A stretch of DNA of 48,132 nt, taken from Candidatus Didemnitutus sp. Lineage in GTDB: Bacteria; Verrucomicrobiota; Verrucomicrobiia; Opitutales; Opitutaceae. Where the stretch lies: contig JAMPXH010000018.1 of NCBI GenBank assembly GCA_023701285.1, forward strand, positions 1 to 48,132. The letters are read 5' to 3'. Below are positions 12,689-44,845 of the stretch, one piece after another (positions within the stretch are counted from its first letter, which is position 1; every line of letters starts with the position of its first letter). The notes beneath the pieces were generated by a model. That model saw only the letters and a list, made by a program, of their open reading frames with translations. It was not told the origin of the DNA and searched no databases. Both the position numbers and the translations under genes were made by a program.

Positions 12689-12792
12689 CGTTCCGGTAAT
12701 GGAACCCGTCTGGCCCGGGAAGGGGCTTTGCCGTTGTCCGTCTCTGGCGCGTGCCAGCTAATGCGCATCGTTCGACTGTTAGGATGAGTTTC

Positions 12793-12816
12793 GCATCCCG
12801 AGCTGCCCCGGGATGC
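12793..12816 (+). promoter_or_regulatory. Leader hairpin upstream of the TonB receptor gene
   Basis: A perfect 8-base inverted repeat, gcatcccg / cgggatgc, has an 8-base loop and ends 21 bases before the ATG at 12838. No T-run follows, so it is not an obvious terminator. It could affect translation or mark a regulator site. Function is unknown. Confidence 0.35.
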
Positions 12817-12837
12817 ATGCCACACCCTGTTCTACCC

Positions 12838-15036: not shown

Positions 15037-15073
15037 TCCAAGCCCACGCAACCTTTCTTCAACCCCCATCACC

Positions 15074-15937: not shown

Positions 15938-15961
15938 CGGGCGGCAGCGCCGTTCATCTGG

Positions 15962-15988
15962 GCGGCGGGAGTGCCATTCTCCCGCCGC
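15962..15988 (+). repeat. Strong intergenic hairpin between the PEP-CTERM and hydrolase genes
   Basis: A perfect 10-base inverted repeat (gcggcgggag / ctcccgccgc) has the loop tgccatt. It is followed by ttgaatct rather than a real T-run. It may be an attenuating or mRNA-stabilising stem, or one copy of a genome-wide palindrome. Confidence 0.5.
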
Positions 15989-16012
15989 TTGAATCTCTGC
16001 TGTCCATTCCCC

Positions 16013-24828: not shown

Positions 24829-25336
24829 CGTTTGCCCTCAGCCGGGATCGTGCAGGAGGTGGGCGTCGGTGTCCCTACCGACGCCTGTCGCTGCTGGGAC
24901 AGCGGCGACCACCCCATTTGCAGGAGCTCATCAGCCGGGAATCATGTCCAACAGCATGATCCCGGCTCAGTGGGCTCGTAGCGCTGCTGGAGGTTGCGCG
25001 GAGCGTGGAGAAGGCGCAGCGCCGGTGCATGGGGTGCGCGCGGCCGGTGCTGGCGGCATGCGCATCGCGGTATTTGCGCGCTTTGTCGTAGAAACCGTGG
25101 CGCGGTCTGATTTTGGGCGCGCGTGGATGTTGATGGCGGCGGGGGCGGAGCGGTGTGCATTTCTGCCGCCGTCACGCGGGGCGAATCCGATGTGCGTGCT
25201 GAAAAATACGACGAACCTGCTTTAACGAAATATTTAAGGCGCTGAAAAACAAGGCATTGGGTGGCCGGAAGGACAGGATCGGCTTATCGCAACAAAATGG
25301 CTGGAGCGTGCGACGCGGGTCTTTCTGCGCGTGCTT
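24829..25336. other. Long non-coding gap between GH38 and GH44 genes
   Basis: These 508 bases contain no ORF with family-like sequence on either strand. The first part (24862-24967) holds three consecutive stem-loops, described separately. Around 25200-25250 the DNA becomes AT-rich (tttaacgaaatatttaa), a plausible promoter area for the GH44 gene, but I cannot fix -35 and -10 boxes. Confidence 0.5.
24862..24967 (+). repeat. Three tandem hairpins downstream of the GH38 gene
   Basis: Hairpin 1 pairs ggcgtcggt (24862-24870) with accgacgcc (24877-24885). Hairpin 2 pairs gtcgctgct (24887-24895) with agcggcgac (24901-24909) with one G:U. Hairpin 3 pairs agccgggaatcatg (24933-24946) with catgatcccggct (24955-24967) with one bulge. 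No T-run follows any of them, so they may act as transcript-end stabilisers or be interspersed palindromes. Confidence 0.55.
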
Positions 25337-28300: not shown

Positions 28301-29308
28301 GTCACGCCGACGTTCGTGTCGCTCGACAACGAGCCCGACCTCTGGTCGCTCACGCATCCGCAGATCCAGCCGCAGCATCCGACCGCGACGGCGTTCATCG
28401 AGAAATCGCTCGCGCTCGCGCGTGCGGTGAAGGCCGTCGACTCCTCCGCCAAGATCTTCGGACCGGTCAACTACGGCATCAGCGGCTTCATCAACTGGCA
28501 GGGCAGCCCCGGCTACACGGAAGACTATTGGTTCATGGACCAATATCTCCAAGCCATGAAGGCGGCCTCCGACAGCACGGGTCAGCGCCTGCTCGATGTG
28601 TTCGATTTCCACTGGTATTCGGAAGCCTACGCGGGCAACGACCGCATCATCTTCCTCAGCTCGCCGAATCTGAACGCGCAACAGATCCAGGAAATCGTGC
28701 AGAGCCCGCGCTCGCTGTGGGACCCGACCTATGCGGAAAATTCCTGGATCGTGAGCTACTTTGGCGGGCCGGTGCGCATCCTCCCGCGCCTCGAGGCGAA
28801 GATCGCCGCCGGTTTCCCTGGCACGAAGCTCGCCATCACCGAATACGACAACGGCGGCCACCACCACATCGCCGGTGCCATCGCCCAGGCCGACAACCTC
28901 GGCATCTTCGGTGCGCACGGCGTCTTCGCGGCCAACTACTGGCCGATGGCGCAGAGCTATCCGTTCGTGCAGGGCGCGTTCAAGATGTATCGCGACTACG
29001 ACGGCCACCTCGGCAGCTTCGGCGACATCTCGCTCGCCGCGACGTCGAGTAACGTCGCGAAGGTCGCCGCCTACGTCAGCCGCGATTCGCAGAATCCGAA
29101 CCGTCTCGTCCTCGTCGTGATCAACCGCTCGTTCACGGCGGAGGACGTCTCGTTCAACGGTCTTGCCGCGAGCGGCAACGCGAAGGTCTACCGCATGGAG
29201 ACGAACAAATCGTCGCCCGTGTTTGTGGGTCAGGTGCCGGTAAACCTCAGCAACTGGGTCATCTCGCTCCCGGCGCTCAGCGTCTCGACGATCGAGATCA
29301 CGCCGTAA
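25337..29308 (+). CDS. Secreted GH44 endoglucanase/xyloglucanase with five Ig-like repeats
   Basis: This 1323-residue exported protein has a long n-region and a hydrophobic signal segment (LCPLLAVLAANAFMLPALSA). Residues 52-445 are five Ig-like repeats. A beta-sandwich of carbohydrate-binding type spans about 446-630. Two fibronectin-III-like domains span about 640-840. The C-terminal 480 residues are a GH44 catalytic domain with NRQGGNRWTAYNWENNAS, acid/base Glu999 in SLDNEPDLW and nucleophile Glu1169 in AITEYDNGG. The 170-residue spacing agrees with GH44. GH44 enzymes cleave beta-1,4-glucan or xyloglucan backbones. ATG 25337 or GTG 25331 could initiate. A strong terminator follows, so the transcript ends here. 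Confidence 0.9.
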   Translation: MQLILHHWRSLLGAILARASGLRFFRNLCPLLAVLAANAFMLPALSADMRPPLPTIGEFKADSVTQATIRLGESSTLTWAIGDATKITIDQGIGDVTALPSVQVTPTKTTTYTLTASNVRGARTARVRVTVVVPPPSIASFTATPSSVALGSSTTLAWDVAGAASVKINNGVGEVSGSSVSVTPTATTTYTLVAQNVAGSARASTRVTVVVPPPVIASFIASPASIALGKSTTLSWDVSGATSVAINNDVGTVTGTSVSVTPTKTTTYTLTARNAAGAVKATARVTVTVPPPSIASFVATPASITAGESTTLSWNVTGATSLSINNGVGTVIGSSVRVSPRATTTYTLTAKSAGGTVTATTRVTVTVAPPVISSFSASPASITAGQASTLSWNVTGATSLAIDHGVGTVTGASVSVSPTDPTTYTLTARNTAGTVTASTSVAVTPSTGGMKYQVAYDSALLGSWIRSCWESETAPIYSNFAAAAPGRPGNAIEVRFGPENGSNAFGLADRKPGWDTQDKYLNEFRTIEFDLYVDADSTGMENLEIMFEDAFLSDDAKLVDFIPGWAQLPPAERVNRWFHVTIDIASLHPKIIRFHQFLFFNNGGPDSQPHFRMANVRVGYVDDLVAPVVTFQSATPSVSYDAMTLAFTTDEFARFRIEYGRTGYTETFEGPGDWDGWVTAHSATLPGLLPGVTYQYRIVAFDHRTEPGTAPNFGYHTGTFTMPAAPTTPPILSGLAATAITGNSATLVWQTNRPTKARLAYRKVGGAELVRTFDDYALSRSSLADLLEPNTTYQGAVTVTDAFSLSASQEIAFTTNAAGVPTVTIAVNPAQTRPISPWIYGMNFYQETADQVRNLTLNRQGGNRWTAYNWENNASNSGADWGPYSNDNYLGGDTVVPAEAVRSRIAEDRARHSASLISVQLQGYVAADKNGLVDIHAPNYLAERFKPVVYRKGAPFTATPSTTDNAVYMDEFVWALRGFFPGNIYADPVTPTFVSLDNEPDLWSLTHPQIQPQHPTATAFIEKSLALARAVKAVDSSAKIFGPVNYGISGFINWQGSPGYTEDYWFMDQYLQAMKAASDSTGQRLLDVFDFHWYSEAYAGNDRIIFLSSPNLNAQQIQEIVQSPRSLWDPTYAENSWIVSYFGGPVRILPRLEAKIAAGFPGTKLAITEYDNGGHHHIAGAIAQADNLGIFGAHGVFAANYWPMAQSYPFVQGAFKMYRDYDGHLGSFGDISLAATSSNVAKVAAYVSRDSQNPNRLVLVVINRSFTAEDVSFNGLAASGNAKVYRMETNKSSPVFVGQVPVNLSNWVISLPALSVSTIEITP
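25490..26671 (+). repeat. Five tandem Ig-like domain repeats (234-base period)
   Basis: The first unit (25490-25735) is 82 codons. Units 2-5 start at 25736, 25970, 26204 and 26438 and are exactly 78 codons each. Each unit runs from PPPxIASFxAxPxSI through TTLSWxVxGATSxxINNGVG to TTTYTLTAxNxAG. Units 3-5 are the most alike, which suggests recent duplication. They lie inside the GH44 gene and probably act as a spacer. Confidence 0.95.
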
Positions 29309-32352: not shown

Positions 32353-33825
32353 TCAGCTGAACAAGTGCAGCACCGGTGACGGGAAGACTCCCAGCACCAC
32401 CAGCAACGCAGCGGCGACCAGCAGCGCCATGCCCGCCAACACCGGCACGGCAATGGGCGCATCCGCCTTGTCCTGCGGTGAGGCGACCAGCGCCTGCTTC
32501 AGGATGAGCAGATAATAGTAGAGCGCCACGGCGCTGAGGGCGATGGCCGTGATGGTCAGCCACCCCGCCGGTCCGTTGAGTCCGCCGAGTTTCAATACCG
32601 AGGCAAAGACTGCGAACTTGCCGAAGAAACCGGCCAGCGGAGGGACGCCCGCCAGCGAAAGCACGAAGACCGCCAGCACGCCCGCGAGCAGCGGGGAGCG
32701 CTTGTAGAGGCCGGCGAGGTCGGACAGGTCCTGACAGCGACCCGCCCGCTCGACCACAGCGACGACGCCGAATGCGCCGACCGTCGCGAGGCCGTAGGTG
32801 GCCGCATAATAGAAGAGTGCGCCCGGGCCGGCCCGGCCGGCGGCGATCACACCGAGGAGCAGCGCCCCCGCGTGCGCGATGGCCGAGTAGGCGAGCAGGC
32901 GGCGGACGTTGCTCTGCGCCAGTGCGGCGAAATTGCCGAGGAAGAGCGACGCGAACGCCAGCACGGCGACGACCGGCAGCCAGCCGACGATGATCGGGAG
33001 ATCCACCACGCGCCCGGCCGTGTAGCCGAGCCCCGGCCAGAGCAACCGCGTGAAGAGCACGAAGCCCGCGAGCTTCGACGCCGACGCGATCAGGGCGGCC
33101 GACGAGGCCGGCGCGCCCTGGTAGACGTCCGGCGCCCACAGGTGGAACGGCGCGGCGGCGGCCTTGAAGCCGAAGGCGACGAGCACCATCGTCAAGCCGA
33201 CCATCAGCAGCGGCGACATGCCCTGCAGCGCCAGCGCCTGGCCGATCTGCGTGAAATGCAGCGAGCCCGTCAGGCCGTAGAGCAGGCTGAAGCCGAAGAG
33301 CAGGAACGCGGCGGACATCGCCCCGAAGAGAAAATATTTCAGCGCCGCCTCGGCGGATTCCGGGCGCGACTTGTCGAAGCCGGCCAGCGCGTAGAGCGAG
33401 AGGCTGGCGAGCTCGATGGCGAGGAAGGCCACGAGCAGCTGTTGCGCGCCCGCCATCAGTGTGAAGCCCGAGGTCGCGAGCAGGAGCAGCGCGACGTATT
33501 CGACCGGGTGGCGCAGGCGCGCGACGCCGGGCAGGAGCGCCATCGTCAGGCCGCCCAGCAGCAGCACGCCCAGGCGCGTGGCGAGCGACAGGTTGTCGAG
33601 GATGAACACGTCCCCGAACACCGGGCCGCCCGTGCCGGCGAAGATCGTGCCGTAGGCCGCGGCGACCAGCGCCGCGAGACCGATCCCGGTCGACGTGCGC
33701 AACCGCTGCGCCGCCGTCCGGCCCTTGCCGGTGGCGAGATCGTAACCGAGGACGACGAGGGCGCCGAGAACGAGGGCCGTCTCGGGCAACAGGGCGCGGA
33801 ATAGTTCTGCGTAGCTCAAGGTCAT
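32353..33825 (-). CDS. nuoN: NADH-quinone oxidoreductase subunit N
   Basis: This 490-residue antiporter-like membrane subunit of complex I has about 14 transmembrane helices. The pump residues typical of the family are visible: the TM5 Glu in AFLAIELASLSLYAL, and the TM7 Lys in AFGFKAAAAPFHLWAPDVYQ. The TM8 Lys lies in ASASKLAGFVLF. It is the last gene of the operon and overlaps the preceding nuoM by four bases. Confidence 0.95.
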   Translation of the reverse strand: MTLSYAELFRALLPETALVLGALVVLGYDLATGKGRTAAQRLRTSTGIGLAALVAAAYGTIFAGTGGPVFGDVFILDNLSLATRLGVLLLGGLTMALLPGVARLRHPVEYVALLLLATSGFTLMAGAQQLLVAFLAIELASLSLYALAGFDKSRPESAEAALKYFLFGAMSAAFLLFGFSLLYGLTGSLHFTQIGQALALQGMSPLLMVGLTMVLVAFGFKAAAAPFHLWAPDVYQGAPASSAALIASASKLAGFVLFTRLLWPGLGYTAGRVVDLPIIVGWLPVVAVLAFASLFLGNFAALAQSNVRRLLAYSAIAHAGALLLGVIAAGRAGPGALFYYAATYGLATVGAFGVVAVVERAGRCQDLSDLAGLYKRSPLLAGVLAVFVLSLAGVPPLAGFFGKFAVFASVLKLGGLNGPAGWLTITAIALSAVALYYYLLILKQALVASPQDKADAPIAVPVLAGMALLVAAALLVVLGVFPSPVLHLFS

Positions 33826-35333
33826 GACGCACCTCCCGTCAGCGCCGCGTGCATGAGCGGCGATTCCAGTGCGGGCCGGATCCAGTCGAGCAGCACATCC
33901 GGCTGCAGGCCGACATAGACCATCGCCGCGATCAGCAGGATCGCGCCGGCCTTCTCGGGCCAGGTGATCGGCGTGATGTCGTGCGCGTGGTGCGCCGCCT
34001 CGGCGACCGCGCCGGGCTTATCGGTCTTGCCGAAGAAGGACACTTGGATCGCGCGCAGCGTGAACGCCGCGGCGACGAGCACGCCCGTGACGGCGACCAG
34101 CGCCCACAGCGGCGAGGTCTTCCACGTGCCGATGAGGATGGTCAACTCGGCCGGGAAACCGCTGAAGCCCGGCATGCCCATCGAGGCGAGTCCGGCGATG
34201 ACGAACACCACGGCGGCGAACGGCATCAGCTTGTGCAGCGGCATCGCGCGCAGGTCGTCGAGCTTCCGCGTGTGCGTGCGCTCGTAGACCATGCGGCCGA
34301 CCACGGCGAACAGCAGCCCGGCGATGACGCCGTGCGAGAACATCTGCAGCACCGCGCCCGCGACCGCCGTCGGATTGGCGGCGGCGAGGCCGAGCAGGAC
34401 GAAGCCCATGTGGCTTACGCTCGAGTAGCCGACGACGAACTTGAAATCATCCTGCACCAGCGCGACCAGGCCCGCGTAGACGATGCCGATGATGGCCAGC
34501 CACGCGATGACCGGGGCGAAATACGCCAGGCCGGCCGGGAACGTGGCCATCGCCACGCGCAGGCAGCCGTAGGCGCCCAGCTTCATCACGACGCCCGCCA
34601 GCAGCATCGACGCGGCGGTCGGCGCGGCCACATGGCCCGTCGGCGCCCAGGTGTGGAAGGGGAACATGCCCGCGAGCACCGCGAAGCCCGTGAAGACCAG
34701 CGCGAACATGCCCAGCTGCTCGAACCGCGTGAACTGCGGCACGGCCGCCGCGATCTCGCCGAGCGCGAACGTGGTGCCGCCCGCCGCCGCCCAGGCCCAG
34801 ATCAGGCCGGCCATGACGAGCGCGCTGCCCGCGAACGAGTAGAGCACGAGCTTCATCGCGCCGTATTCGCGGTTGGTGGAGCCCCAGTTCGCGATGAGGA
34901 AATACTTCGGCACGATCGCGATCTCGTAGAACACGAAGAACAGGAACGCATCCGCGCTGAGGAACACGCCGAACACGCCGCCGATCAGCGCGAGGTAGAA
35001 GGCGAAGAACTCGCCGGTGCGATGCTCGATGTTCCAGGAGAAAAGCACGCCGACGACCGACGCGAGGCCGGTGAGGACCATCAGCGTCATGCTGATGCCG
35101 TCGGCCGCGAGGTGGTAGCGCACGCCGAGCTGCGGGATCCACTCGACGTTGACCAGCGTCTGCAGGGCGGCGGCCGGCTCGAAACCGAGCGCGGCCCACA
35201 GCGCGAGGGCGAGGGTGGTCAGCGCCGTGCCGAGCGCCACGACGCGCGCGGCCTGCGCCGAGCGGAGGCCGGCCAGCAACGCCAGCGCGGCGCCGGCGAA
35301 GGACACGTAGATGGTGCAGGGAAGGGCGTTCAT
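33822..35333 (-). CDS. nuoM: NADH-quinone oxidoreductase subunit M, second copy (TM7 Lys missing)
   Basis: This 503-residue antiporter-like subunit is the second of two tandem NuoM proteins. The TM5 Glu is present (FFVFYEIAIVPKYFLIANWG), as are the TM8 Lys (LLAGVVMKLGAYG) and the TM12 Glu (GFPAELTILIG). At the TM7 position where NuoM normally has an essential Lys (AVKxP), this protein reads FAVLAGMFPFHTW with Leu220. The first NuoM copy keeps Lys231 there. It overlaps both neighbours by four bases, so it is translated with them. Confidence 0.92.
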   Translation of the reverse strand: MNALPCTIYVSFAGAALALLAGLRSAQAARVVALGTALTTLALALWAALGFEPAAALQTLVNVEWIPQLGVRYHLAADGISMTLMVLTGLASVVGVLFSWNIEHRTGEFFAFYLALIGGVFGVFLSADAFLFFVFYEIAIVPKYFLIANWGSTNREYGAMKLVLYSFAGSALVMAGLIWAWAAAGGTTFALGEIAAAVPQFTRFEQLGMFALVFTGFAVLAGMFPFHTWAPTGHVAAPTAASMLLAGVVMKLGAYGCLRVAMATFPAGLAYFAPVIAWLAIIGIVYAGLVALVQDDFKFVVGYSSVSHMGFVLLGLAAANPTAVAGAVLQMFSHGVIAGLLFAVVGRMVYERTHTRKLDDLRAMPLHKLMPFAAVVFVIAGLASMGMPGFSGFPAELTILIGTWKTSPLWALVAVTGVLVAAAFTLRAIQVSFFGKTDKPGAVAEAAHHAHDITPITWPEKAGAILLIAAMVYVGLQPDVLLDWIRPALESPLMHAALTGGAS

Positions 35334-36859
35334 GGCAGCGGAAGTTGGGCGGCCCAGGCCGTCACGAGCGGGTTGACGAGGCCGGCGAGCAATTGCGGGA
35401 CGAGGCCGAGAACGAACATCAGCACGATGAGCGGCACGAGCGTCATGATCTCCTCGGCGTCGAGATCGCGGAACTTCACCCCGGCGCCGGTGGACGGGCC
35501 GTGGAAGACGCGTTGCCAGAAGGTGAGGAGAAAGATCGCCGTGGCGAGCAGGCCGAGCGTCGAGACCGCCGCGGCGACCGGTGTGAGGCCGAACACGCCG
35601 CGGAAGATGAGGAACTCACCGACGAAGCCGTTCAGGCCCGGCAGGCCGAGCGAGGAGAACATCGCGATGCCGCACAGGCCGGCGAAGACGGGGGCGGCGG
35701 TGCGCACGCCGCCGAAGTCGGCGATGCCGCGCCGCCCTCCGGCGCGCGACTCCAGCGCGCCCACGCAGAAGAACAGCGCGGCGGCGGACAGGCCGTGGTT
35801 GAACATCTGCAGGATCGCGCCGCTCAGAGCGGCGGCGGGAGCCTCCGTGCCGGCCCGGCCGGCGGCGGCCACGGCGAAGAGCGCGAGGAGGCAGTAGCTC
35901 AGGTGGTTGACGGAGGAGTAGGCGACGAGGCGCTTCAGGTCGGTCTGGCGCAGCGCGGCGTAGGCGCCGAGCACGACACCCGCGACGGCGAGCCAGAGCA
36001 GGCAGGGCGCGGCGGCGTGCAGTTGCGCCGGGAAGAGCGGCCAGAGTAGCCGGAGGAAACCGTAGACACCCATCTTCGACAGCACGCCGGTGAGGAACAT
36101 CGACGCGCCGGTCGGCGCCTCGGCGTAGGCCGAAGGCAGCCAGGTGTGGAAGGGGAAAAGCGGCACCTTCACGGCGAGCGCGAGCAGCACGCCGAGGAAG
36201 ACGACCTGCGGCCAGATGCCGCCCAACGCGGCGAGCTTGCCCGCCAGCACACCCTCGCGGGCGAGCGCGGCCAGTTGCACGAAGTCAAACGTGCCGGTGG
36301 CCGCGTAGAGCGCGGCGAAGGCCAGCAGCATGAACGCGCTGCCGCCGATGGTGTAGATGACGAACTGGTAGGCCGCGCGCGTGGCGCCCGGGCCGCCCCA
36401 GAGCTTGATGAGGAAGAAGGCCGGCACGAGGCTCAGCTCCCAGAAGATGAACCACGGGAAGAAATCCAGCGCGAGGAACACGCCGAGCGCACTGCCTTGC
36501 AGGAACAGGTAGAGCGCGGCGTAGAGCGCGGGCTGGCGCGCGGCGCGGGTCGTGCCGAACAGCGCCACCGGCGCGATCAGGCCGGTGAGGAGCACGAGCA
36601 CGAGGCTGAGCCCGTCGAGGCCGAGGAAGTAATTCACATTCAGCGCGCCGATCCAGGCGTGCTTCTCGACGAATTGCAGCGCGGTCTGGTGCGGGTCGAA
36701 GCCGGCGAGCGCGGTGGTGCCGAGCGCGAGCGTCGAGAGGCTGAAGAACAGCGCGATGGCGCGCGTGGCGCCGGCGCCGAGGCGCGGCATCAGGGCGAGC
36801 AGGAGCGCACCCAGCCAAGGCGTGAAGACGATGAGCGAGAGGAGCGGGAGGGAGTTCAT
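35330..36859 (-). CDS. nuoM: NADH-quinone oxidoreductase subunit M, first copy
   Basis: This 509-residue antiporter-like proton-pumping subunit has all key charged residues of NuoM. The TM5 Glu lies in WFIFWELSLVPAFFLIKLWG, TM7 Lys231 in LAVKVPLFPFHTWLPSAYAE, the TM8 Lys in TGVLSKMGVYGFLR, and the TM12 Glu in GFVGEFLIFRG. It follows nuoL after a 118-base gap that holds a palindromic element, the only real gap in the operon. It overlaps the second nuoM by four bases. Confidence 0.94.
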   Translation of the reverse strand: MNSLPLLSLIVFTPWLGALLLALMPRLGAGATRAIALFFSLSTLALGTTALAGFDPHQTALQFVEKHAWIGALNVNYFLGLDGLSLVLVLLTGLIAPVALFGTTRAARQPALYAALYLFLQGSALGVFLALDFFPWFIFWELSLVPAFFLIKLWGGPGATRAAYQFVIYTIGGSAFMLLAFAALYAATGTFDFVQLAALAREGVLAGKLAALGGIWPQVVFLGVLLALAVKVPLFPFHTWLPSAYAEAPTGASMFLTGVLSKMGVYGFLRLLWPLFPAQLHAAAPCLLWLAVAGVVLGAYAALRQTDLKRLVAYSSVNHLSYCLLALFAVAAAGRAGTEAPAAALSGAILQMFNHGLSAAALFFCVGALESRAGGRRGIADFGGVRTAAPVFAGLCGIAMFSSLGLPGLNGFVGEFLIFRGVFGLTPVAAAVSTLGLLATAIFLLTFWQRVFHGPSTGAGVKFRDLDAEEIMTLVPLIVLMFVLGLVPQLLAGLVNPLVTAWAAQLPLP

Positions 36860-36890
36860 GCGCGCTGATTTCCCGGAAGCACAAAAAGTG

Positions 36891-36958
36891 GGTAGAGGCG
36901 GTCGTCCCGACCGCCTTGGGCGAAGAGGTGGTCGTCGGGACGACGGACGCTACCTGGG
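36891..36958. repeat. Palindromic element in the nuoL-nuoM gap
   Basis: The 118-base spacer contains two inverted repeats. One is ggcggtcg (36897-36904) with cgaccgcc (36908-36915). The other is gtcgtc (36931-36936) with gacgac (36939-36944). The words cgtcccgac and gtcgggacg also pair across the element, so one larger cruciform is possible. Such gtagaggcggtcgtcc-type sequences look like an interspersed palindrome, though copy number cannot be assessed here. Confidence 0.5.
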
Positions 36959-36977
36959 AGAGTCATGCTAGCGTGGC

Positions 36978-38978
36978 TCATTTCGCACCTCCCAGCAGGA
37001 CGACGAGGAGGACGATCACAAAACCGAGGGCGAGCGTGCGCAGGTAGCCGTGGGCGTCGCCGGTCTGGAGCCGCGAGTAGAGCTGGCCGAGGCCGCGGAG
37101 GCGCTCGCTGGTGGCGTTGAAGCCGCCGTTGAGCGTGCGCTCGTCGGTCTCGCGGTTGGCGAAGCCGGTGAACTCGCCGAGCTTGGCGAGGAAGCGGATG
37201 GCTCCATCCCACACATTCCGGTCCATCCAGTCCGCGACGATGGCGAGGCCGGCGTTCAGGCGGAAAGCGGTGGCGGCGTAGAGTTCGTCGAAGCCGAGCC
37301 GGTTGCCCAACGCGGCGAACGCGCGGGGGGCTTGCACTTCGAGTGGGTCGCGGGCGGCGGCGTCGGTGCGCGGGCGGCGGCCGTAGATCGCCCAGCCGGC
37401 ACCGATGCCGACGGCGACGATGAGCACGGAGGCGGCCATCAGGCCGACGCCGTCGAAGAGGCCGTGGCCGTGCACCTCGGATTGGCCTTCGAGCATGGCG
37501 CTGAGCCACGGATAGGAAGGCAGGTTGACCAGACTCAGCAGCACGGCGCAGGCGGCGAGCAGCATGAGCGGCACGGTCATGGCGGCGTGGTTCTCGTGGG
37601 CGTGCTCGGCGGCGTGCGAGCGAGGCGAACCGAAGAAGGTCTCGGCCATGAGGCGCGTGTTGTAGAACGCGGTGAGGACGACACCGAGGAGCGCGGCGTA
37701 GAAGGGGAGGTGCGAGACGCTCCAGCCGTGCGCGGCGTGGAGGATGGCTTCCTTCGACCAGAAGCCGGAGAACAGCAGCGGCACGCCGACGAGCGCCATG
37801 GTGCCGATGCTGAAGGTGACGAAGGTGACCTTCATCTTCTTCGACAGGCCGCCGAGCGAGCGGATGTCCTGCTCGTGGTGCGCGGCGTGGATCACCGAGC
37901 CGGCGCCGAGGAAGAGCAGGGCCTTGAAGAAGGCGTGCGTGAGCAAGTGGAAGATCGCCGCGACCCACGAGCCGACGCCGATCGCGAGCATCATGTAGCC
38001 GAGCTGCGAGACGGTGGAGAAGGCGAGGATGCGCTTGATGTCGTTTTGCGCGACGGCGATGAACGCGCCCATGAGCGCCGTGATCGCGCCGATGAAGGCG
38101 ACGACGGTGAGCGCGTCGGGCGTCAGCAGCGGGAAGACGCGCGCCATCAGGAACACGCCGGCGGCCACCATCGTGGCGGCGTGAATGAGGGCGGAGACGG
38201 GCGTCGGGCCCTCCATCGCGTCCGGGAGCCACACGTGCAGCGGGAACTGGCCGGATTTGCCGACCGCGCCGCAGAAGATGAGCAGGCCGATGGCGGTCGA
38301 GAGCGCAAGGCCGCCGCAGACCGTCTGGCCGGCGAGCGTGCCGAGCACGGCGGGTTCGAGCGCGCCGGCGCCGCCATCATAGAAGAGCAGCGTGCCGCCC
38401 GCGTGCTGGAGCCAGAGCATGCCGAGCAGCAGGCCGAGGTCGCCGATGCGCGTCGTGATGAAGGCCTTCTTCGCGGCGGCGGCGGCGGATGGCTTGTGGA
38501 ACCAGAAGCCGATGAGGAGATACGAGGCGAGGCCGACGAGCTCCCAGCAGAGGAAGAGGAGCAGGAGGCTGTTCGCCACGAGCAGGCCGAGCATCGCGGC
38601 GGCGAAGAGACTCAGGAAGCAGAAGAAGCGCGTGAAATTGGCGTCCTCCTTCATGTAGCCCGTGCTGAAGATGAAGATCAGCGCGCCGACGAAGGTCACC
38701 ATCACGCACATGAAGGCCGTGAGCGGATCGAGCAGGAAACCGAGGCGCAGCGCGCCCGAACCGAGGTCGAACCAGGCGAAGTTGAACACCTGTTTCGCGG
38801 CCGGGTCGGCCAGCGCGCTCTGCAGCGCGAGGCAGGACAACACGAACGCGCCGAGCATGGCCGCGATGGCGGCGCCGGCGGCGAGCTTGCGGCCGCCGCG
38901 CGGCGTGAGCGCGCCGATCGCGGCGGACGCGAGCGGCAGGGCCGGGATGAGCCAGAGAGAGTGGGCGGAGAGGGTCAT
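36978..38978 (-). CDS. nuoL: NADH-quinone oxidoreductase subunit L with extended C-terminus
   Basis: This 666-residue antiporter-like subunit is the distal pump of the membrane arm. The TM7 Lys region reads CGAVGKSGQFPLHVWLPDAM and the following helix GPTPVSALIHAATMVAAG. The C-terminal part after FDELY (residue 563) carries the long amphipathic lateral helix and the anchor helix. Here it is 104 residues long, about 30 more than in E. coli (about 73). The extra sequence lies around residues 590-640 (RNVWDGAIRFLAKLGEFTGF and RTLNGGFNATSERLRGLGQ). Such insertions accompany an additional NuoM. nuoK ends three bases upstream. Confidence 0.95.
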   Translation of the reverse strand: MTLSAHSLWLIPALPLASAAIGALTPRGGRKLAAGAAIAAMLGAFVLSCLALQSALADPAAKQVFNFAWFDLGSGALRLGFLLDPLTAFMCVMVTFVGALIFIFSTGYMKEDANFTRFFCFLSLFAAAMLGLLVANSLLLLFLCWELVGLASYLLIGFWFHKPSAAAAAKKAFITTRIGDLGLLLGMLWLQHAGGTLLFYDGGAGALEPAVLGTLAGQTVCGGLALSTAIGLLIFCGAVGKSGQFPLHVWLPDAMEGPTPVSALIHAATMVAAGVFLMARVFPLLTPDALTVVAFIGAITALMGAFIAVAQNDIKRILAFSTVSQLGYMMLAIGVGSWVAAIFHLLTHAFFKALLFLGAGSVIHAAHHEQDIRSLGGLSKKMKVTFVTFSIGTMALVGVPLLFSGFWSKEAILHAAHGWSVSHLPFYAALLGVVLTAFYNTRLMAETFFGSPRSHAAEHAHENHAAMTVPLMLLAACAVLLSLVNLPSYPWLSAMLEGQSEVHGHGLFDGVGLMAASVLIVAVGIGAGWAIYGRRPRTDAAARDPLEVQAPRAFAALGNRLGFDELYAATAFRLNAGLAIVADWMDRNVWDGAIRFLAKLGEFTGFANRETDERTLNGGFNATSERLRGLGQLYSRLQTGDAHGYLRTLALGFVIVLLVVLLGGAK

Positions 38979-38981
38979 GGC

Positions 38982-39293
38982 TCAGCCTTTGAGTTGGGCC
39001 GCTTCCTGGAGCTTCACGCTCTTGCGGTGGCGGTAGACGGCGATGACGAGCGCCAGGCCGACGGCGGCCTCGGCGGCGGCGACCGCGATGGAGAACAGCA
39101 CGAAAATGAGGCCGGTGCCCATCTCCGGGTGCGGGCCGTAGCGCCAGAACGCGATGAAGTTCAGGTTCGCGGCGTTGAGCATGAGCTCGATGCCGAGCAG
39201 CACGAGGATGGTGTTGCTGCGGGACAGCGCGCCGATCAGGCCGACGCAGAACAGCAGCGAGGAGAGGAGCAGGCAGAGCTGCAGCGTGCTCAT
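38982..39293 (-). CDS. nuoK: NADH-quinone oxidoreductase subunit K
   Basis: This 103-residue, three-helix membrane subunit is of normal size. Conserved segments are LIGALSRSNTILVLLGIELM with the membrane Glu, LNAANLNFIAF, and the second membrane Glu in AAAEAAVGLALVIAVYRH. These Glu residues form part of the proton path of complex I. It overlaps nuoJ by four bases. Confidence 0.96.
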   Translation of the reverse strand: MSTLQLCLLLSSLLFCVGLIGALSRSNTILVLLGIELMLNAANLNFIAFWRYGPHPEMGTGLIFVLFSIAVAAAEAAVGLALVIAVYRHRKSVKLQEAAQLKG

Positions 39294-39802
39294 GAGAAAT
39301 CCTCCGGGTTGTCGGTGCGCTCCTGCGAGGCGATGACCACGGCGCCGAGCAGGGCGACGGTCAGGATGATACCGATGATGAGCAGGCCGATCGCATGGGG
39401 GCCCATGAGCTGCCGGCCAATCTCCTTCACGCTCGCGGCCGCCGGGAGCGCGGACGAGACATCGAGCGGCGTGCCGAAGATGGCGCCGCCGAGGACGCCG
39501 GCCACGCCGCCCGCGGCGAAGAGGCCGCCGATGACGCGCGGGATGGAATCAGTCTCGATCGGCGTCGGCGTGCCCTGCCGCGTGAGCAACACCGCGAAGA
39601 GCACGACCATCGAGACGGCGCCGACGTAGACGAGGATCTGGGCGAAGGCGACGAACTGCGCGCCGGCCCAGAGGTAGAACGCCGCCACGCCGACCCAGCT
39701 GAGGACGAACAGCAGCGCGCTGTGGATCAGGTTGCGCAGCGACAGAGCCACGGCGGCCGAGCCGAGGATGAGAGCGGCGATGACGAGGAGGGCGGGCGTC
39801 AT
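39290..39802 (-). CDS. nuoJ: NADH-quinone oxidoreductase subunit J
   Basis: This 170-residue, five-helix membrane subunit is called from ATG 39802. The longer open frame reaching 40960 lies inside nuoH and is an artefact. The hallmark TM3 segment reads AQFVAFAQILVYVGAVSMVV, followed by LFAVLLT. The C-terminus (GAVVIASQERTDNPEDFS) is soluble. It overlaps nuoH and nuoK by four bases each. Confidence 0.95.
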   Translation of the reverse strand: MTPALLVIAALILGSAAVALSLRNLIHSALLFVLSWVGVAAFYLWAGAQFVAFAQILVYVGAVSMVVLFAVLLTRQGTPTPIETDSIPRVIGGLFAAGGVAGVLGGAIFGTPLDVSSALPAAASVKEIGRQLMGPHAIGLLIIGIILTVALLGAVVIASQERTDNPEDFS

Positions 39803-41028
39803 GTGGCGTAGCGGTAAGTGCGCGGACCGCGGCCTTGATTGAGGCGGCGGCCGATCCAGATGAAGGGCACGATCACGATGGCGGCGGAGACGATCCAGCG
39901 GACCACCTGCAGGGTGGGGCTCCAGCCGGCCGTCAGCGACCAGAAGGCGGCGTTGGCGAGGTTGAGCAGGGCCAGCGGCACGAGGAACTGCCAGGAGAGG
40001 CGCGTGAGCTGGTCGATGCGGAGGCGCAGCAGCGTGCCGCGGATCCAGATGAAGAAGACGATCATGCCGACGAGCTTCCCCATGAACCAGAGATACGAGG
40101 GGATGAACTCGAGGAAGGGGAACGGCGCCTGCCAGCCGCCGAGGAAGACGGTGATGCCGAGGCCGCTGAGGGCGAAGAGGCCAAAGTATTCGGCCATGAA
40201 GAAGAGCGCGTATTTGAAGCCGGAGTATTCCGTGAGGTGGCCGGCGATGAGCTCGCTCTCCGCCTCGGGCAGGTCGAACGGCGAGCGGTTGCTCTCCGCG
40301 AGGGCCGAGATGAGGAAGATGACGAAGCCCGCGAAACCCCAGGGCGTGAACACGTGCCACGCCGGAAGGAAACCGAAGGCCCAGTCGCCCTGCGCGAGGA
40401 CGATCTCCTGCGTCGAGAGCGTGCCGGCGACGAGCAGCACGGGGACGACGGAGAGGATGAGCGGCAGTTCGTAGCTGATGAGCTGCGCCAGCGCGCGCAT
40501 GGCCGCGAGCATCGAGTATTTGTTCCGGCTCGCCCAGCCGGCCATGAAGATGGCGAGCTCGGTGGCGGCGCCGGCGGCGAAGAAGTAGAGCACCGCGGCG
40601 TCGAGCTCGACCGGGATGAGGTTGCGTCCGTAGGGCAGCACCGCGTAGCCGAGCAGGGAGAAGGCGACGATGCAGACCGGCGCGAGGAAGTGCAGGAGCT
40701 TGTCGGCGCCGGCGGGGACGATGTCCTCCTTGGTCAGCGCCTTGACGGCGTCGGCGAAGGGCTGGGTGAGGCCCCAGAGGCGCGGGCCGTTCTTCCACCA
40801 GGGCAGGCCGGCGCGGTTGGGGCCGAGACGGTTTTGCAGGCGGCTGAGCAGCTTGCGCTCGGCGATGGTGGTGAAGGCGAACAGCACGCCGAACACCGTC
40901 AGGATGACGATGATGGTGATGAGCTGGTGCACGAGCCACTGCGCGGACTCGGGGAACCAAGCCACGATGGCGTCACGGAGTTCGAGGGGGGCGCGTTCGA
41001 GGAACGCTTCGGAGGCGGCGGCGCTCAT
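39799..41028 (-). CDS. nuoH: NADH-quinone oxidoreductase subunit H
   Basis: This 409-residue membrane subunit forms the quinone chamber with NuoB and NuoD. Conserved loops are visible: AERKLLSRLQNRLGPNRAG, FMAGWASRNKYSMLAAMRAL and AESNRSPFDLPEAESELIAG. The matrix-type loop FKYALFFMAEY follows. It lies after nuoI rather than before it, a departure from the usual H-I order. It overlaps nuoI by four bases. Confidence 0.96.
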   Translation of the reverse strand: MSAAASEAFLERAPLELRDAIVAWFPESAQWLVHQLITIIVILTVFGVLFAFTTIAERKLLSRLQNRLGPNRAGLPWWKNGPRLWGLTQPFADAVKALTKEDIVPAGADKLLHFLAPVCIVAFSLLGYAVLPYGRNLIPVELDAAVLYFFAAGAATELAIFMAGWASRNKYSMLAAMRALAQLISYELPLILSVVPVLLVAGTLSTQEIVLAQGDWAFGFLPAWHVFTPWGFAGFVIFLISALAESNRSPFDLPEAESELIAGHLTEYSGFKYALFFMAEYFGLFALSGLGITVFLGGWQAPFPFLEFIPSYLWFMGKLVGMIVFFIWIRGTLLRLRIDQLTRLSWQFLVPLALLNLANAAFWSLTAGWSPTLQVVRWIVSAAIVIVPFIWIGRRLNQGRGPRTYRYAT

Positions 41029-41729
41029 GAGGCGGCAGGAGGCGGCTGGGGGGCCGTCGCGCTGGGCGCGGGGGCGGGTGACGAGGGGACAGCAGTGGCG
41101 GGTTGCGCGACGGGGGCGGAAGGTGCGGCGGCAGCGGGCGCGGCCTTGGCGGCGGCGGCTTTTGCGGCGGCGGCGGCCGCGGCAGCCTTGGCCTTTTCCT
41201 CGGCGGCCTTGCGCTCGGCGCCCAGACGATCATCGACCTCGGCGGCCTCGGTCGGTCGAATCTGGTTGTAGTAGGCGTTGGACTTCGCGAGCAGCTCGCG
41301 GGTGAGGAGCAGGCCGGTGAAGCGGTCCGTGGCGCCGATCTCGAAGACCTTGTCCATCTTGATCGAGTCGAAGGGGCAGACCTCGGCGCAGATGCCGCAG
41401 CTCATGCAGACGGAGGTGTCGATGTCGAAGACGGCCGGGTAGAACTGCGGCTTGCCGGTGGCGTCGGGCTTCTTGTCCTTCGACTTCTCGATGTAGATGC
41501 ACTGCGGCGGGCATTCCTTCTCGCAGATCTGGCAGGCGACGCAGCGCAGCGTCGTCATCGGATCGCTGCCGTCCTCGCACACGAGGAAAGGGAAGCTGCG
41601 GTAGTTCTCGCCGATGGGCGCCTTCTCCTCGGGATAGGAGACGGTCACCATCCGGGCGGGGTCATGGTAGCTGCCGACGAAATTCTTCGCCGTGACGGCG
41701 AGGCCTTTGAGGAGTCCGGTGCCGAGCAT
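41025..41729 (-). CDS. nuoI: NADH-quinone oxidoreductase subunit I with Ala/Pro-rich tail
   Basis: This 234-residue peripheral subunit binds two [4Fe-4S] clusters (N6a and N6b) through CVACQICEKECP and CMSCGICAEVCP. The core ends near residue 170. After it comes a charged Glu/Lys/Ala helix (AERKAAEEKAKAAAAAA) and a low-complexity Ala/Pro/Ser tail to the stop, about 60 residues beyond a typical NuoI. The tail may be disordered. The gene is placed between nuoD and nuoH. Confidence 0.94.
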   Translation of the reverse strand: MLGTGLLKGLAVTAKNFVGSYHDPARMVTVSYPEEKAPIGENYRSFPFLVCEDGSDPMTTLRCVACQICEKECPPQCIYIEKSKDKKPDATGKPQFYPAVFDIDTSVCMSCGICAEVCPFDSIKMDKVFEIGATDRFTGLLLTRELLAKSNAYYNQIRPTEAAEVDDRLGAERKAAEEKAKAAAAAAAAKAAAAKAAPAAAAPSAPVAQPATAVPSSPAPAPSATAPQPPPAAS

Positions 41730-41732
41730 GGT

Positions 41733-42911
41733 TTAGCGGTCCACTTCTCCGAGGACGATGTCGATGCTGCCGAGGATGACGACGGCGTCGGCCACGGTGT
41801 GGCCGAGGCACATCTCCTCGAGCAGCGTCAGGTTGATGAGGGTGGGCGGACGGACGCGGTAACGATACGGATTGGGCGTGCCGTCGCTGATGAGATAGAA
41901 ACCGAGTTCGCCCTTCGGGCCTTCGATGCGGCCGTAGGCTTCGCCGGCCTTCGGGCGGAAACCGCGGAGCTTCGCCTTCGGGTCCATGACCGGGCCGGCG
42001 GGCAGGTCGCGGAAGGCTTGGGCGAGGATCTTCACTGACTCGCGCATTTCGAGGATGCGGAGCATGTAGCGGTCGTAGGTGTCGCCGTGCTCGCCGAGCG
42101 GGACGCGGAAATCGAAGCGCGGGTAGAAGCCGTAGCCGTCGACCTTGCGGAGATCGTAGTTGTAGCCGGAGGCGCGCAGGCAGGGGCCGGTGATGCCGGC
42201 GTTGATGGCTTGCTTGGCGTCGAGCAGGCCGAGCCCTTGGGTGCGGGCGAGCATGATCTCGTTGCCGGTGAGCATCTCCTCCCACTCGTCGAGGAAGCGA
42301 GGGAAACCTTCCACGAGCTTCTGCGCGGCGGCGAGCCACTCGGGCGTCGGGTCGACGCGGCAGCCGCCGAAGCGCTGGAAGTTGCACATCATGCGCGAGC
42401 CGCTGAGCGCCTCGAAGAGGTCGAGGAACTTCTCGCGCTCGCGGAAACCGTAGAGGAGCGGCGTGAACGAGGTGCCGAGGTCGTTGAAGAGGAAGCCGAC
42501 GAGGCAGGTGTGGTTCACCAGGCGCGTCATCTCCGCGAGGATGATGCGGAGGTATTGCGCGCGGTCGGGCACGGGCTGGCCGGCGAGTTTCTCGACCGCC
42601 ATCGCGTAGGCCCAGTTGGTCGACATCGAGCAGAGGTAGTCGAGCCGGTCGGTGTAGGGCATCGTCGCGAGATAAGTCGTCGATTCGGCGATCTTCTCGT
42701 GGTTGCGGTGCAGGTAGCCGAAGACGGGCTTGAGCTTGACGATCTGTTCGCCGTCGAGCGTCACGACCATGCGGAACACGCCGTGGGTCGACGGGTGCTG
42801 CGGTCCCATCGAGACCTCGAGGAGGTCGCCGTGGAACTCGTCGTGCACGGCGCGGACGGTGGGGCCGCCGAAGGGGTTGAACGGGGTGGGAGCGGAGCCG
42901 GCGCCGATCAT
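41733..42911 (-). CDS. nuoD: NADH-quinone oxidoreductase subunit D
   Basis: This 392-residue 49-kDa subunit lines the quinone site. Conserved features are the MGPQHPSTHGVFRMVVTLDG beta-hairpin with its quinone-contacting His, GYLHRNHEKIAE, and the C-terminal SIDIVLGEVDR. ATG 42911 is chosen. The longer frame to 43154 reads Arg-rich non-NuoD sequence inside nuoC. The start overlaps the nuoC stop by four bases; three bases separate it from nuoI. Confidence 0.96.
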   Translation of the reverse strand: MIGAGSAPTPFNPFGGPTVRAVHDEFHGDLLEVSMGPQHPSTHGVFRMVVTLDGEQIVKLKPVFGYLHRNHEKIAESTTYLATMPYTDRLDYLCSMSTNWAYAMAVEKLAGQPVPDRAQYLRIILAEMTRLVNHTCLVGFLFNDLGTSFTPLLYGFREREKFLDLFEALSGSRMMCNFQRFGGCRVDPTPEWLAAAQKLVEGFPRFLDEWEEMLTGNEIMLARTQGLGLLDAKQAINAGITGPCLRASGYNYDLRKVDGYGFYPRFDFRVPLGEHGDTYDRYMLRILEMRESVKILAQAFRDLPAGPVMDPKAKLRGFRPKAGEAYGRIEGPKGELGFYLISDGTPNPYRYRVRPPTLINLTLLEEMCLGHTVADAVVILGSIDIVLGEVDR

Positions 42912-43582
42912 GATTTGGTCTCCGGTTGGGCGGGCGCGGCGCTGGGCGCGGGCGTGGCCGGGTAATGGGTCTTGGCGCGGGCGAGCACCTGATCGTGGGG
43001 CGTCGGCTCCCATTCGTAATCGTCGGGGGCGACGTAGTCCTTGCGCATCGGGTGATCCTTGAACTCGGGCCACATCAGCAGGCGGCGCAGGTCGGGATGG
43101 CCTTCGAATTTGATGCCATAGAGGTCGTAGATTTCGCGTTCCTGGAAATCGCACGAGCGCCAGACGGGCGTGAACGATGGCAGCGCGACCTGATCGGAGC
43201 GGTTGGCCGTGCGCATGCGCACGACGACGGGACCGTGCTTCAACGCCATCGAGTAGAGGTGATAGACAGCCTCAAGGCAGCCGGGCTCGAAGCGCTTGGT
43301 CTTCTCCTCGATGACCTTGGCGGGGCCGCCCGCGGGATCGGGGACGGTGGTCTTCTTCGTCTCGACGACTTCCTTGTCGGGCCAGTCGACGCCGGTGGCG
43401 TTGGAGCAATAATCGAGTTGCAGCGCCTCGTCGTCGCGGAGGAAGAGGGCGATCTCCCGTCCGCAGGCCGGGTCGATGAGCAGCGAGTGCTCGGCGGCGG
43501 GGCCGGGGTTCTGCAGGATGGAAATCTTCGCGCCGGGGAAACGGGCGAGCAGGCGGTCGCGGATCTGTTCGAGGGATTCCAT
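42908..43582 (-). CDS. nuoC: NADH-quinone oxidoreductase subunit C
   Basis: This 224-residue 30-kDa-type subunit is separate from NuoD, unlike the fused NuoCD of E. coli. The signature EREIYDLYGIKFEGHPDL followed by RRLLMWPEF is intact. A Thr/Lys/Pro-rich segment around residues 75-95 (KKTTVPDPAGGPAKVIEEK) is an insertion. The Ala/Pro-rich C-terminus is short. Confidence 0.93.
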   Translation of the reverse strand: MESLEQIRDRLLARFPGAKISILQNPGPAAEHSLLIDPACGREIALFLRDDEALQLDYCSNATGVDWPDKEVVETKKTTVPDPAGGPAKVIEEKTKRFEPGCLEAVYHLYSMALKHGPVVVRMRTANRSDQVALPSFTPVWRSCDFQEREIYDLYGIKFEGHPDLRRLLMWPEFKDHPMRKDYVAPDDYEWEPTPHDQVLARAKTHYPATPAPSAAPAQPETKS

Positions 43583-43585
43583 GGC

Positions 43586-44254
43586 TCAGGCCTTGCGCGG
43601 GAGCGACGGCGGGGTCCAGACGTCGGGATTTTTCGCGGGCACGATGTCGTGCTCGCCGTAAGTGGGGACGGGGAACTCGCTGGGTTTCTCCGGTTGGAAC
43701 TGGCGGGCGGCGCCGGGGCCGGCGACGCGTTCGCCTTGGATCTTCTTTTGCAGTTCGATGAGGCCGTTGAGCAGCGCCTCGGGACGCGGCGGGCAGCCGG
43801 GGATGTAGATGTCGACGGGAATGAAACGGTCGATGCCCTTGAGGACGTTGTAGCCCTGCTTGAAGGGGCCGCCGGAGATCGCGCAGGCGCCCATCGCGAT
43901 GCAGTATTTCGGCTCGGGCATCTGGTTCCAGAGGCGGACGACGTTCGGCGCCATCTTCTTGGTGACGGTGCCGGAGACGATCATGAGGTCGGCCTGGCGG
44001 GGCGAGGGACGGAAAATCTCGGCGCCGAAGCGCGCGATGTCGAAACGGGCCGTGGCGGCGGCGATCATCTCGATGGCGCAGCAGGCGAGGCCGAATTGGA
44101 GCGGCCAGATCGAGTTGGCGCGGCCCCAGTTGTAGAGCTCCTCGAGGCTGGTGAGGAGGATGCCGTGGCGGCGGAGCTCCTCGCGTTCAGCGTCGGAGAT
44201 GTTGCCCGCCGCCGGGAAGGGCGTCGGGGTTGGCGTGGAGGAAGCGTCGCTCAT
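43586..44254 (-). CDS. nuoB: NADH-quinone oxidoreductase subunit B
   Basis: This 222-residue peripheral subunit holds the terminal N2 [4Fe-4S] cluster that reduces quinone. Cluster cysteines are in [10 protein letters not shown], in [11 protein letters not shown] and in [15 protein letters not shown] 44254 (MSDASSTP) is preferred because the longer frame to 44479 reads Arg-rich sequence antisense to nothing and overlaps nuoA. It overlaps nuoA by four bases. Confidence 0.95.
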
Positions 44255-44622
44255 TTCCAGTTGAGGTGGCCGCGTGCCCAGGCCCAGACGAGGCCTTCGG
44301 CGAGAAGAAGGATGAACACCAGCATCGCGAACAACGCGCCCGCGGGCAGGCCGGTGAAGGCGACGGCGAAGGGCAGGAGGAAGAGCACTTCGACGTCGAA
44401 GATCAGGAACAGGATCGCGTAGAGATAGTAGTGGGCCTTGAACTGGATCCACGAATCGCCCTGGGGCGGGAGACCGCACTCATACACGGCGTTCTTCATC
44501 GCGCCGGGCTTGGCCGGTTGGAAAAAGCGGACCCAGAGCCAAGTGACGCTCAGCAAAATCAGCGGAAAGGCGAGCGCGACAGCAAGGAAGAGGGCCAGAA
44601 ATGCGTGGGGGTGGCCGTTCAT
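44251..44622 (-). CDS. nuoA: NADH-quinone oxidoreductase subunit A
   Basis: This 123-residue, three-helix membrane subunit begins the operon. The conserved Cys loop YECGLPPQG and the charged helix [16 protein letters not shown], with its Asp and Glu, are present. ATG 44622 (MNGHPHAF) gives the normal length. The longer opening to 44658 would add 12 polar residues. The 223-base gap to the divergent ferredoxin gene should hold the operon promoter, which I could not pin down. Confidence 0.95.
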
Positions 44623-44845
44623 GTTTATTTTGGTAGAACGAGCTTCCAAAGATGCCAATCCCCATTCAACGCCGAAGCCGTTCCGTTAATTGTCAGAAGC
44701 TGCTCATCGGTTGTCGTGGGGGCGTGATGAGGAAGCATGATTGATAGTTGTCGCACGCGGGCCAAGAAACGCGTCGTGCTCGTCAAGAAGTGGAGAGAGC
44801 GGGCGCGGCTTTGCGGCTAGAGTGGGCGGGTCAACCCTCCACCAC

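Follow-up and report, generated by a model that had tools for sequence, protein, structure and literature searches.

Complex I of the 2M type was described by Chadwick et al. (2018, ISME J). According to the passages of later papers that cite this work (PMC9040806, PMC6606698), such enzymes have a second nuoM beside the first and a lengthened NuoL. The insertion in NuoL was reported as 26 aa, and the 2M NuoL of Nitrospira has an insertion of similar length and position (PMC9040806, in the passages on 2M NuoL). Here we describe a complex I operon from Candidatus Didemnitutus sp., located in contig JAMPXH010000018.1. The whole stretch of DNA analysed, hereafter the window, is 48,132 nt. The complete 12-gene operon, nuoA-B-C-D-I-H-J-K-L-Ma-Mb-N, runs from position 44658 down to 32353, and all twelve genes are on the minus strand. 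Ma and Mb denote the two copies of nuoM. Thus, as in the 2M complex, a second nuoM is present among nuoL, nuoM and nuoN, and the NuoL insertion is near the published 26 aa. We consider it quite likely, from gene content, that this Opitutus-like verrucomicrobium encodes in the operon a 12-subunit, 2M-type complex I that has no dedicated NADH module.

Other described complexes share some of these features. In the excerpts of PMC6606698 that deal with 'clade 3' 2M complexes of Nitrospira, two NuoM, a long NuoL and an incomplete NADH module are likewise reported. However, those complexes are without nuoE, nuoF and nuoH and have an enlarged nuoG; in the window, nuoH is present and nuoG absent. The 2M loci of Chloroflexi have the same nuoL-nuoM-nuoM-nuoN order, but nuoBCDI are split off and nuoCD is fused, as far as the relevant part of PMC7117926 describes them. 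Conversely, the window holds 12 genes together, with nuoC and nuoD separate. Green complex I, such as Complex_I_3 of Ca. Manganitrophus, also has one or more extra antiporter-like subunits (PMC9040806, in the passages on this complex). There, two MrpD-like subunits replace NuoL, whereas the window encodes an ordinary NuoL (matching TIGR01974; see the table) with a longer helix. Operons of the green layout occur separately in the family. The conventional verrucomicrobial complex I, found on contig C118 of the same genome, belongs to the same family as the window complex, and its NuoM, like one of the two in the window, has leucine in place of a lysine in transmembrane helix 7 (TM7). It differs in having one NuoM, a NuoL helix span of 58 residues and adjoining nuoE/F/G, and its NuoL is 44% identical to that of the window. 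The citing papers, in their passages on 2M complex I, mention neither a leucine-type second NuoM nor a second helix aspartate, both of which occur in the window. Among the matches listed in our literature searches, and to the extent of the text they offer, we did not find three features described together: a 12-gene operon that has no NADH module, a lysine-type beside a leucine-type NuoM, and a second helix aspartate motif. A search on 2M or NuoM in Opitutaceae or Verrucomicrobia gave nothing on point among the matches listed.

Genes of the operon are tightly packed. Intergenic spacing is −4 to 3 bp, with the single exception of 118 bp between nuoL and Ma, and the Ma–Mb and Mb–nuoN junctions are both 4-bp overlaps. 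NCBIfam naming agrees for every gene. The curated cut-off was passed by nuoB, nuoD, nuoK, nuoL, Ma, Mb and nuoN and missed by nuoA, nuoC, nuoI, nuoH and nuoJ. All eleven subunits of the complex I core (A–D and H–N) are encoded, five of them by genes that score under the NCBIfam cut-offs. Unlike the 14-subunit, NADH-driven form of complex I, the window operon has no nuoE, nuoF or nuoG. The original prediction was of nuoL, nuoM, nuoM and nuoN in series, forming a four-pump, 2M architecture. We confirmed all four genes above their NCBIfam cut-offs at 38978–32353 on the minus strand. The 2M architecture is also supported by the overlapping second nuoM, the gene order kept in relatives and a helix extension near the published size. 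The missing nuoE/F/G, which bear strongly on the energetics, had gone unremarked, and the 'four-pump' wording is not supported as it was put.

We searched for relatives with Ma and inspected 80 named loci, the best 80 of 276 matches. Because they were found with Ma, these loci are biased towards 2M. Both Ma and Mb are present in 78. The operon is spanned by 45 loci, and gene order is as in the window in 44; at the 45th (L090; L, G and C numbers are our labels for loci, genomes and contigs) the nuoA match falls in a neighbouring operon. No nuoE-, nuoF- or nuoG-like gene was found at any of the 80 loci, 35 of which do not span the operon (median flank 2.1 kb past nuoA and 7.0 kb past nuoN). Opitutales genomes, and genomes of Pedosphaera or subdivision 3, are among those named in the record titles. 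The closest by Ma, among the best 80 of 276, are two Opitutus metagenome-assembled genomes (84 and 86% identical). Within the window's genus, tandem NuoM genes occur in 12 of 13 genomes, and the exception (G011) is 74% complete. A phylum-wide NuoL search gave a match at E 1e-100 in 53 of 155 genomes. We chose 40 of 63 NuoL matches by hand, favouring those that stop before the model's end as a hint of a long helix. Five of the 40 loci were 2M (L123, L125, L128, L131 and L142), a proportion that, because of this preference, is not a frequency. The Ma search found no relative in viral contigs. Plasmid records with a NuoL match numbered 40; four were inspected and each had one NuoM.

The lateral helix of NuoL was measured between two anchor residues, F563 and Y645. 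This span is 83 residues in the window NuoL and 58 in the conventional NuoL of the same genome. All four outgroups with one NuoM fall within 54–59 (E. coli 54, Sinorhizobium 59, Paenibacillus 57, Bacteroides 58). The excess over E. coli is 29 residues, in agreement with the roughly 30 originally predicted, and that over the paralogue is 25. The extra residues map to about 37163–37086, inside the predicted interval of 37060–37211. Overall, the chain is 53 aa longer than that of E. coli (613 aa), with the excess outside the helix mainly at residues 200–245 and 484–540.

The same span was counted across the phylum. Of 124 rows, three present the same gene twice (L017/L032, L018/L034, L062/L128), leaving 121 distinct NuoL; nine truncated NuoL were excluded (L031, L033, L043, L064, L073, L081, L089, the second L095 frame and L104). 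Where two NuoM and NuoN were visible, the span was 83 in 80 of 81 rows and 84 in the other. With two NuoM and NuoN out of view, it was 83 in all three. Rows with one NuoM and NuoN (n = 36) gave 58 in 26, 59 in 8 and 60 in 2. For those with one NuoM and NuoN out of view (n = 4), the span was 83 in three and 58 in one. The three long helices in this last group are explained: L023 is cut at a region border and its Mb is in L022, the contig of L072 ends after Ma, and L097 has ~4.7 kb of other DNA (11521–16207) between Ma and Mb. The 121 distinct NuoL comprise 84 with a long helix (two-NuoM operons or cut loci) and 37 with a short one (loci showing one NuoM). Among the 81 distinct NuoL assigned to two-NuoM operons, the span is 83 in 80 and 84 in one, a constancy that argues against a chance difference. 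No NuoL sampled here breaks the match between helix length and NuoM number.

We modelled the window NuoL with AlphaFold2, as a one-protein prediction for which 63 verrucomicrobial NuoL were aligned. The model has a mean pLDDT (predicted local distance difference test) of 86, a single helix at residues 560–637 and a closing helix at 642–661. In Foldseek, its matches are NuoL chains of solved structures, 6khj_F scoring best (E 1.1e-36). A helix of 25 residues is ~37 Å long. Insertion of a surface loop was rejected since the model runs one helix through the stretch, albeit at low confidence there.

The two NuoM differ at a key residue. At the sites matching E. coli 144, 234, 265, 322 and 407, Ma has E, K, K, H and E, the full set of central-axis residues, whereas Mb is without the TM7 lysine (position 234). 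Among distinct sequences, this position is lysine in 91/91 Ma, leucine in 90/91 Mb (the other row is gapped) and leucine in 36/36 conventional verrucomicrobial NuoM. Elsewhere, it is lysine in 4/4 green-complex NuoM and in E. coli, Sinorhizobium and Paenibacillus, and leucine in Bacteroides. One early count put the four green-complex NuoM with Ma; later counts separate them. The conventional NuoM of the window's genome was entered twice, and the distinct-sequence counts correct for duplicates. Row L139, counted as Mb, stems from a single-NuoM operon, and row L107, counted as Ma, stands alone. Apart from one gap at 144, all three NuoM groups retain H322 together with the glutamates of TM5 (E144) and TM12 (E407). 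K265 is retained in Ma, in Mb (bar one gapped row) and in 34/36 conventional NuoM. A lysine at position 150 is specific to Mb (89/91 distinct sequences; in no Ma or conventional NuoM). Conventional NuoM have conserved residues of their own (H143, H259 and K264).

NuoM without the TM7 lysine is not confined to 2M operons. It is also the ordinary NuoM of the sampled Verrucomicrobiota (L008:15306-16829, contig C118, in the window's own genome) and occurs in one Bacteroides record (L155). In a tree of 59 sequences, made by a quick method with some long branches and with only SH-aLRT (Shimodaira–Hasegawa-like approximate likelihood ratio test) support, the leucine types (Mb, conventional and Bacteroides) form a group (98) and Ma a separate branch (95). 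Because Ma and Mb sit in these separate branches, and are 35% identical, we rejected the idea that they are recent tandem duplicates. Mutagenesis papers (PMC3046159, PMC9802314) report, in the passages concerned, that E. coli NuoM K234 mutants lose function and that catalysis in Paracoccus depends on the essential pair E141/K232. Because Mb is without the lysine of this Glu-Lys pair, a full extra pump, and hence 'four pumps', is not assured. On balance, we lean towards Mb being functionally unlike a normal pump. A literature search for NuoM without the lysine gave no paper on a leucine-type NuoM among the matches listed.

In Paracoccus, D648 of the NuoL helix touches H239 and Y315 of NuoM; breaking the contact lowers stability and leaves stoichiometry unchanged (PMC9802314, in the part describing this contact). 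We infer that D586 of the window NuoL is the equivalent residue through alignment with the Sinorhizobium homologue, because the Paracoccus chain itself aligned only to residue 646. A second aspartate, D612, follows 26 residues further on, and N617 is asparagine in 83 of the 84 distinct long-helix NuoL. We profiled the putative docking segment using 30 of 40 short helices, the ones in which F+23 itself is D, E or N; one of these residues occurs within one position of F+23 in 41/41 short helices. Across 86 long-helix rows (including three duplicates), F+23 (D586) ranks first in 80 and second in 6. F+49 (D612) ranks first among the remaining offsets in 33/86 and in the top four in 70/86; by family mean it comes second among the offsets. 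The shuffle null was −21 versus −2.9. Given the relatedness of the sequences and the heavy weight of aspartate in the profile, this contrast does not amount to a probability; offset rank is the fairer measure. The partner residues in NuoM (E. coli H241 and Y317) are both invariant in distinct Ma (91/91 each); in distinct Mb, the His is kept in 90/91, with one gap, and the Tyr in 91/91. Conventional NuoM keep them less strictly (34/36 and 23/36). The second aspartate motif resembles the NuoM-docking one, and we read the two motifs as putative clamps, one for each NuoM. A clean 26-residue tandem duplication as the origin of the insert was not kept, the profile self-comparison being indecisive; we retain the more modest proposal that a docking motif recurs.

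The host genome (4.0 Mb, 220 contigs, 95% complete) bears on the electron donor. The second, conventional complex I on contig C118 has nuoE-, nuoF- and nuoG-like genes and a single NuoM. We rejected a private NADH module made from the NuoEF-like genes of contig C105, because these adjoin a NiFe hydrogenase, which we take to be of the Hox type. Three POR_N proteins exceed the cut-off. Because menD is above the cut-off, and no UbiG is above it in this genome, the quinone is presumably menaquinone. From midpoint potentials, electron transfer to menaquinone yields ~47 kJ/mol from NADH and ~67–82 kJ/mol from ferredoxin. By calculation, moving 3, 4 or 5 protons at 150 mV costs ~43, 58 or 72 kJ/mol. 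Thus a five-proton enzyme would need a donor such as ferredoxin, the cost exceeding the yield from NADH. By the same potentials, a four-proton NADH enzyme on menaquinone would be strained too. These figures agree with a ferredoxin donor and, more speculatively, with a leucine-type NuoM that would not pump. Since the operon is without an NADH module, entry of electrons from ferredoxin at NuoI is most likely. We favour, with some reserve, ferredoxin (or another low-potential carrier) over NADH as the direct donor. The missing nuoE/F/G in 80 related loci, 45 of which span the operon, suggest that the complex is probably a ferredoxin:menaquinone enzyme.

These observations suggest a model. The membrane arm would have the order NuoL-Ma-Mb-NuoN and would be strapped by the longer NuoL helix. 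One NuoM would be held by D586 and the other by D612, in each case at the conserved His/Tyr pair of that NuoM. Electrons would pass from reduced ferredoxin to NuoI/NuoB and then to menaquinone. Ma, with its full Glu-Lys pair, would pump. Mb would relay the charge wave, its pumping step changed or absent.

Some results weigh against this model. The co-occurrence of long helix and two NuoM reflects one origin within the phylum, not many, because in a NuoL tree built without the helix the 19 sampled two-NuoM NuoL form a single clade (SH-aLRT 99, quick method). A long helix is also no sure mark of a fourth subunit. In Ca. Manganitrophaceae, the NuoL of both Complex_I_1 and Complex_I_2 has such insertions, and the authors read these as room for extra subunits or as a transition (PMC9040806, in the passages on these insertions). 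AlphaFold2 confidence in the insert is low, with block means of 48–68 across residues 601–640. In a plain self-repeat test, offset 26 has the best mean (−0.52), with offset 22 close (−0.57) and having the better best window. Both NuoM nonetheless very probably belong to one complex. That they are alternatives in two versions of a three-subunit arm seems highly improbable, even though a NuoM might be swapped with that of the second complex I of this genome. The 4-bp overlaps and conserved order argue otherwise, as does a helix ~25 residues longer, with a second aspartate motif, in every sampled two-NuoM operon.

The conserved lysine at position 150 might also stand in for the lost TM7 lysine. 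Mb would then be a full proton pump, with another residue such as K150 (TM5) in the lysine's role, an appreciable possibility that falls somewhat short of our preference. In its favour are the restriction of K150 to Mb, the different residues conserved in conventional NuoM, and the retention in Mb of E144, K265, H322 and E407, bar one gapped row. However, K150 lies six residues from E144 in the same helix, which by helical geometry would place it on a different face, and the E. coli and Paracoccus reports on the TM7 lysine also count against this reading. NADH is the donor in another scheme, where the complex borrows NuoEFG of the conventional operon and so works as an NADH:menaquinone enzyme that has one additional pump. 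Sharing is possible because the window's genome, with E-, F- and G-like genes adjoining its conventional nuoL-M-N, and 40 of 42 other 2M genomes hold a NuoF homologue, which also counts against a ferredoxin enzyme. None of the 40 homologues exceeds the model's cut-off, nor does NuoF of the window's genome, and several have lengths like those of hydrogenase or formate dehydrogenase proteins. We consider borrowing unlikely, given the lack of E, F or G alongside the 80 loci (45 of them spanning the operon) and the shortfall of NADH against five protons, by which forward running would hardly be possible. Reverse operation, in which proton motive force drives ferredoxin reduction from menaquinol, is a little less likely still. 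Opitutaceae are mostly heterotrophs, and the hydrogenase and POR genes suggest a surplus of ferredoxin. Reversal has been proposed for the Nitrospira 2M complex (PMC6606698, in the passages on that complex). Nitrospira requires ferredoxin for its reductive tricarboxylic acid cycle.

Table 1. Features of the complex I operon, with positions in the window.
Feature	Position	Strand	Evidence
nuoA	44251..44658	-	NuoA models 71-100 bits, all below curated cut-offs of 145-163; heads the chain
nuoB	43586..44254	-	NF011394 325 bits (above cut-off 312); TIGR01957 241 bits (above 142.7)
nuoC, separate from nuoD	42908..43582	-	TIGR01961 101 bits (below cut-off 122.45)
nuoD	41733..42911	-	NF004739 428 bits (above cut-off 360)
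nuoI, two 4Fe-4S motifs	41025..41729	-	TIGR01971 85 bits (below 113); Fer4_7 38 bits (above cut-off)
nuoH	39799..41028	-	NF004741 298 bits (just below cut-off 305)
nuoJ	39290..39802	-	NF005168 86 bits (below cut-off 154)
nuoK	38982..39293	-	NF004320 101 bits (above cut-off 57)
nuoL, lengthened lateral helix, 666 aa	36978..38978	-	TIGR01974 592 bits (above cut-off 407.5); AlphaFold2 model
NuoL lateral helix, residues 560-637	37068..37301	-	single helix in AlphaFold2 model
Extra 25-26 residues of NuoL lateral helix, ~606-631 (placement uncertain by several residues)	37086..37163	-	alignments
NuoL D586, first helix aspartate	37221..37223	-	among 84 distinct long-helix NuoL, 76 with D and 8 with E
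NuoL D612, second helix aspartate	37143..37145	-	D in 84/84 distinct long-helix NuoL
Ma (nuoM copy a), 509 aa, full central-axis residue set	35330..36859	-	TIGR01972 469 bits (above cut-off 263.8)
Ma K231, TM7 lysine retained	36167..36169	-	alignment
Mb (nuoM copy b), 503 aa, TM7 lysine replaced by leucine	33822..35333	-	TIGR01972 437 bits (above cut-off 263.8)
Mb L220, replacing TM7 lysine	34674..34676	-	K at aligned place in solved Paracoccus, E. coli and cyanobacterial NuoM chains
nuoN, 490 aa, closes operon	32353..33825	-	TIGR01770 360 bits (above cut-off 332.6)

Additional observations were made in the window and at related loci. NuoI has an Ala/Pro-rich C-terminal tail of roughly 80–90 residues, possibly close to the electron donor. 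Outside the operon, a long open reading frame at 25331–29308 (1325 aa) probably encodes a secreted protein; Thr-rich segments of Ig-like appearance recur over the first third of its length. Complex I genes of another kind lie after or near the 2M operon in several Opitutaceae (L022/L023 in G018, L038, L065, L090 and L110). In G018 the nearby complex has two MrpD-like subunits replacing NuoL (green type), giving three kinds of complex I including the conventional one. At L038, L065, L090 and L110 the stretch stops before the NuoL position of the neighbouring genes. A solitary Ma-like NuoM is present in a Puniceicoccales metagenome-assembled genome (L107:9866-11449), with no other nuo-like gene within 16 kb. 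Locus L108 (CALQJI020000097.1), titled Klebsiella pneumoniae, has a typical verrucomicrobial 2M operon, and the title is probably wrong. The nuoL-like gene L162 (G081:C3:1673-3616) has 10 in-frame TGA codons, four at conserved tryptophans. Its contig (22.9 kb, 35% GC), in a Verrucomicrobiota genome, looks like mis-binned mitochondrial DNA.

The proton count of complex I, and whether every antiporter-like subunit pumps alone, are still argued. In the passages that treat it, the TM7 lysine is said to be conserved in every antiporter-like subunit and its loss to be inactivating (PMC9802314, PMC3046159). Leucine replaces it in every readable conventional and second NuoM of this phylum. A speculative account, to which we give little weight, is that NuoM sets the gearing of complex I in menaquinone-using bacteria. 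The leucine-type NuoM (Verrucomicrobiota, Bacteroides) would be a naturally disarmed antiporter, so that the conventional NADH:menaquinone enzyme would move about three protons per two electrons. The 2M enzyme, with ferredoxin as its lower-potential donor, would add a lysine-type NuoM of separate origin and thereby regain one pumped proton, its helix having a doubled docking motif for the two NuoM. If so, the extra subunit would restore the textbook stoichiometry of four instead of raising it to five. One genome has both kinds of NuoM in one operon, plus a conventional operon with the leucine kind only, and thus lets the two be compared in nature. From the second aspartate motif follows a prediction of how two NuoM would be gripped by the lateral helix. 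A lengthened complex I that has four pump-like subunits and no NADH-binding part, and in which one of the two middle subunits is without the lysine, would be a natural test of the number of protons moved.

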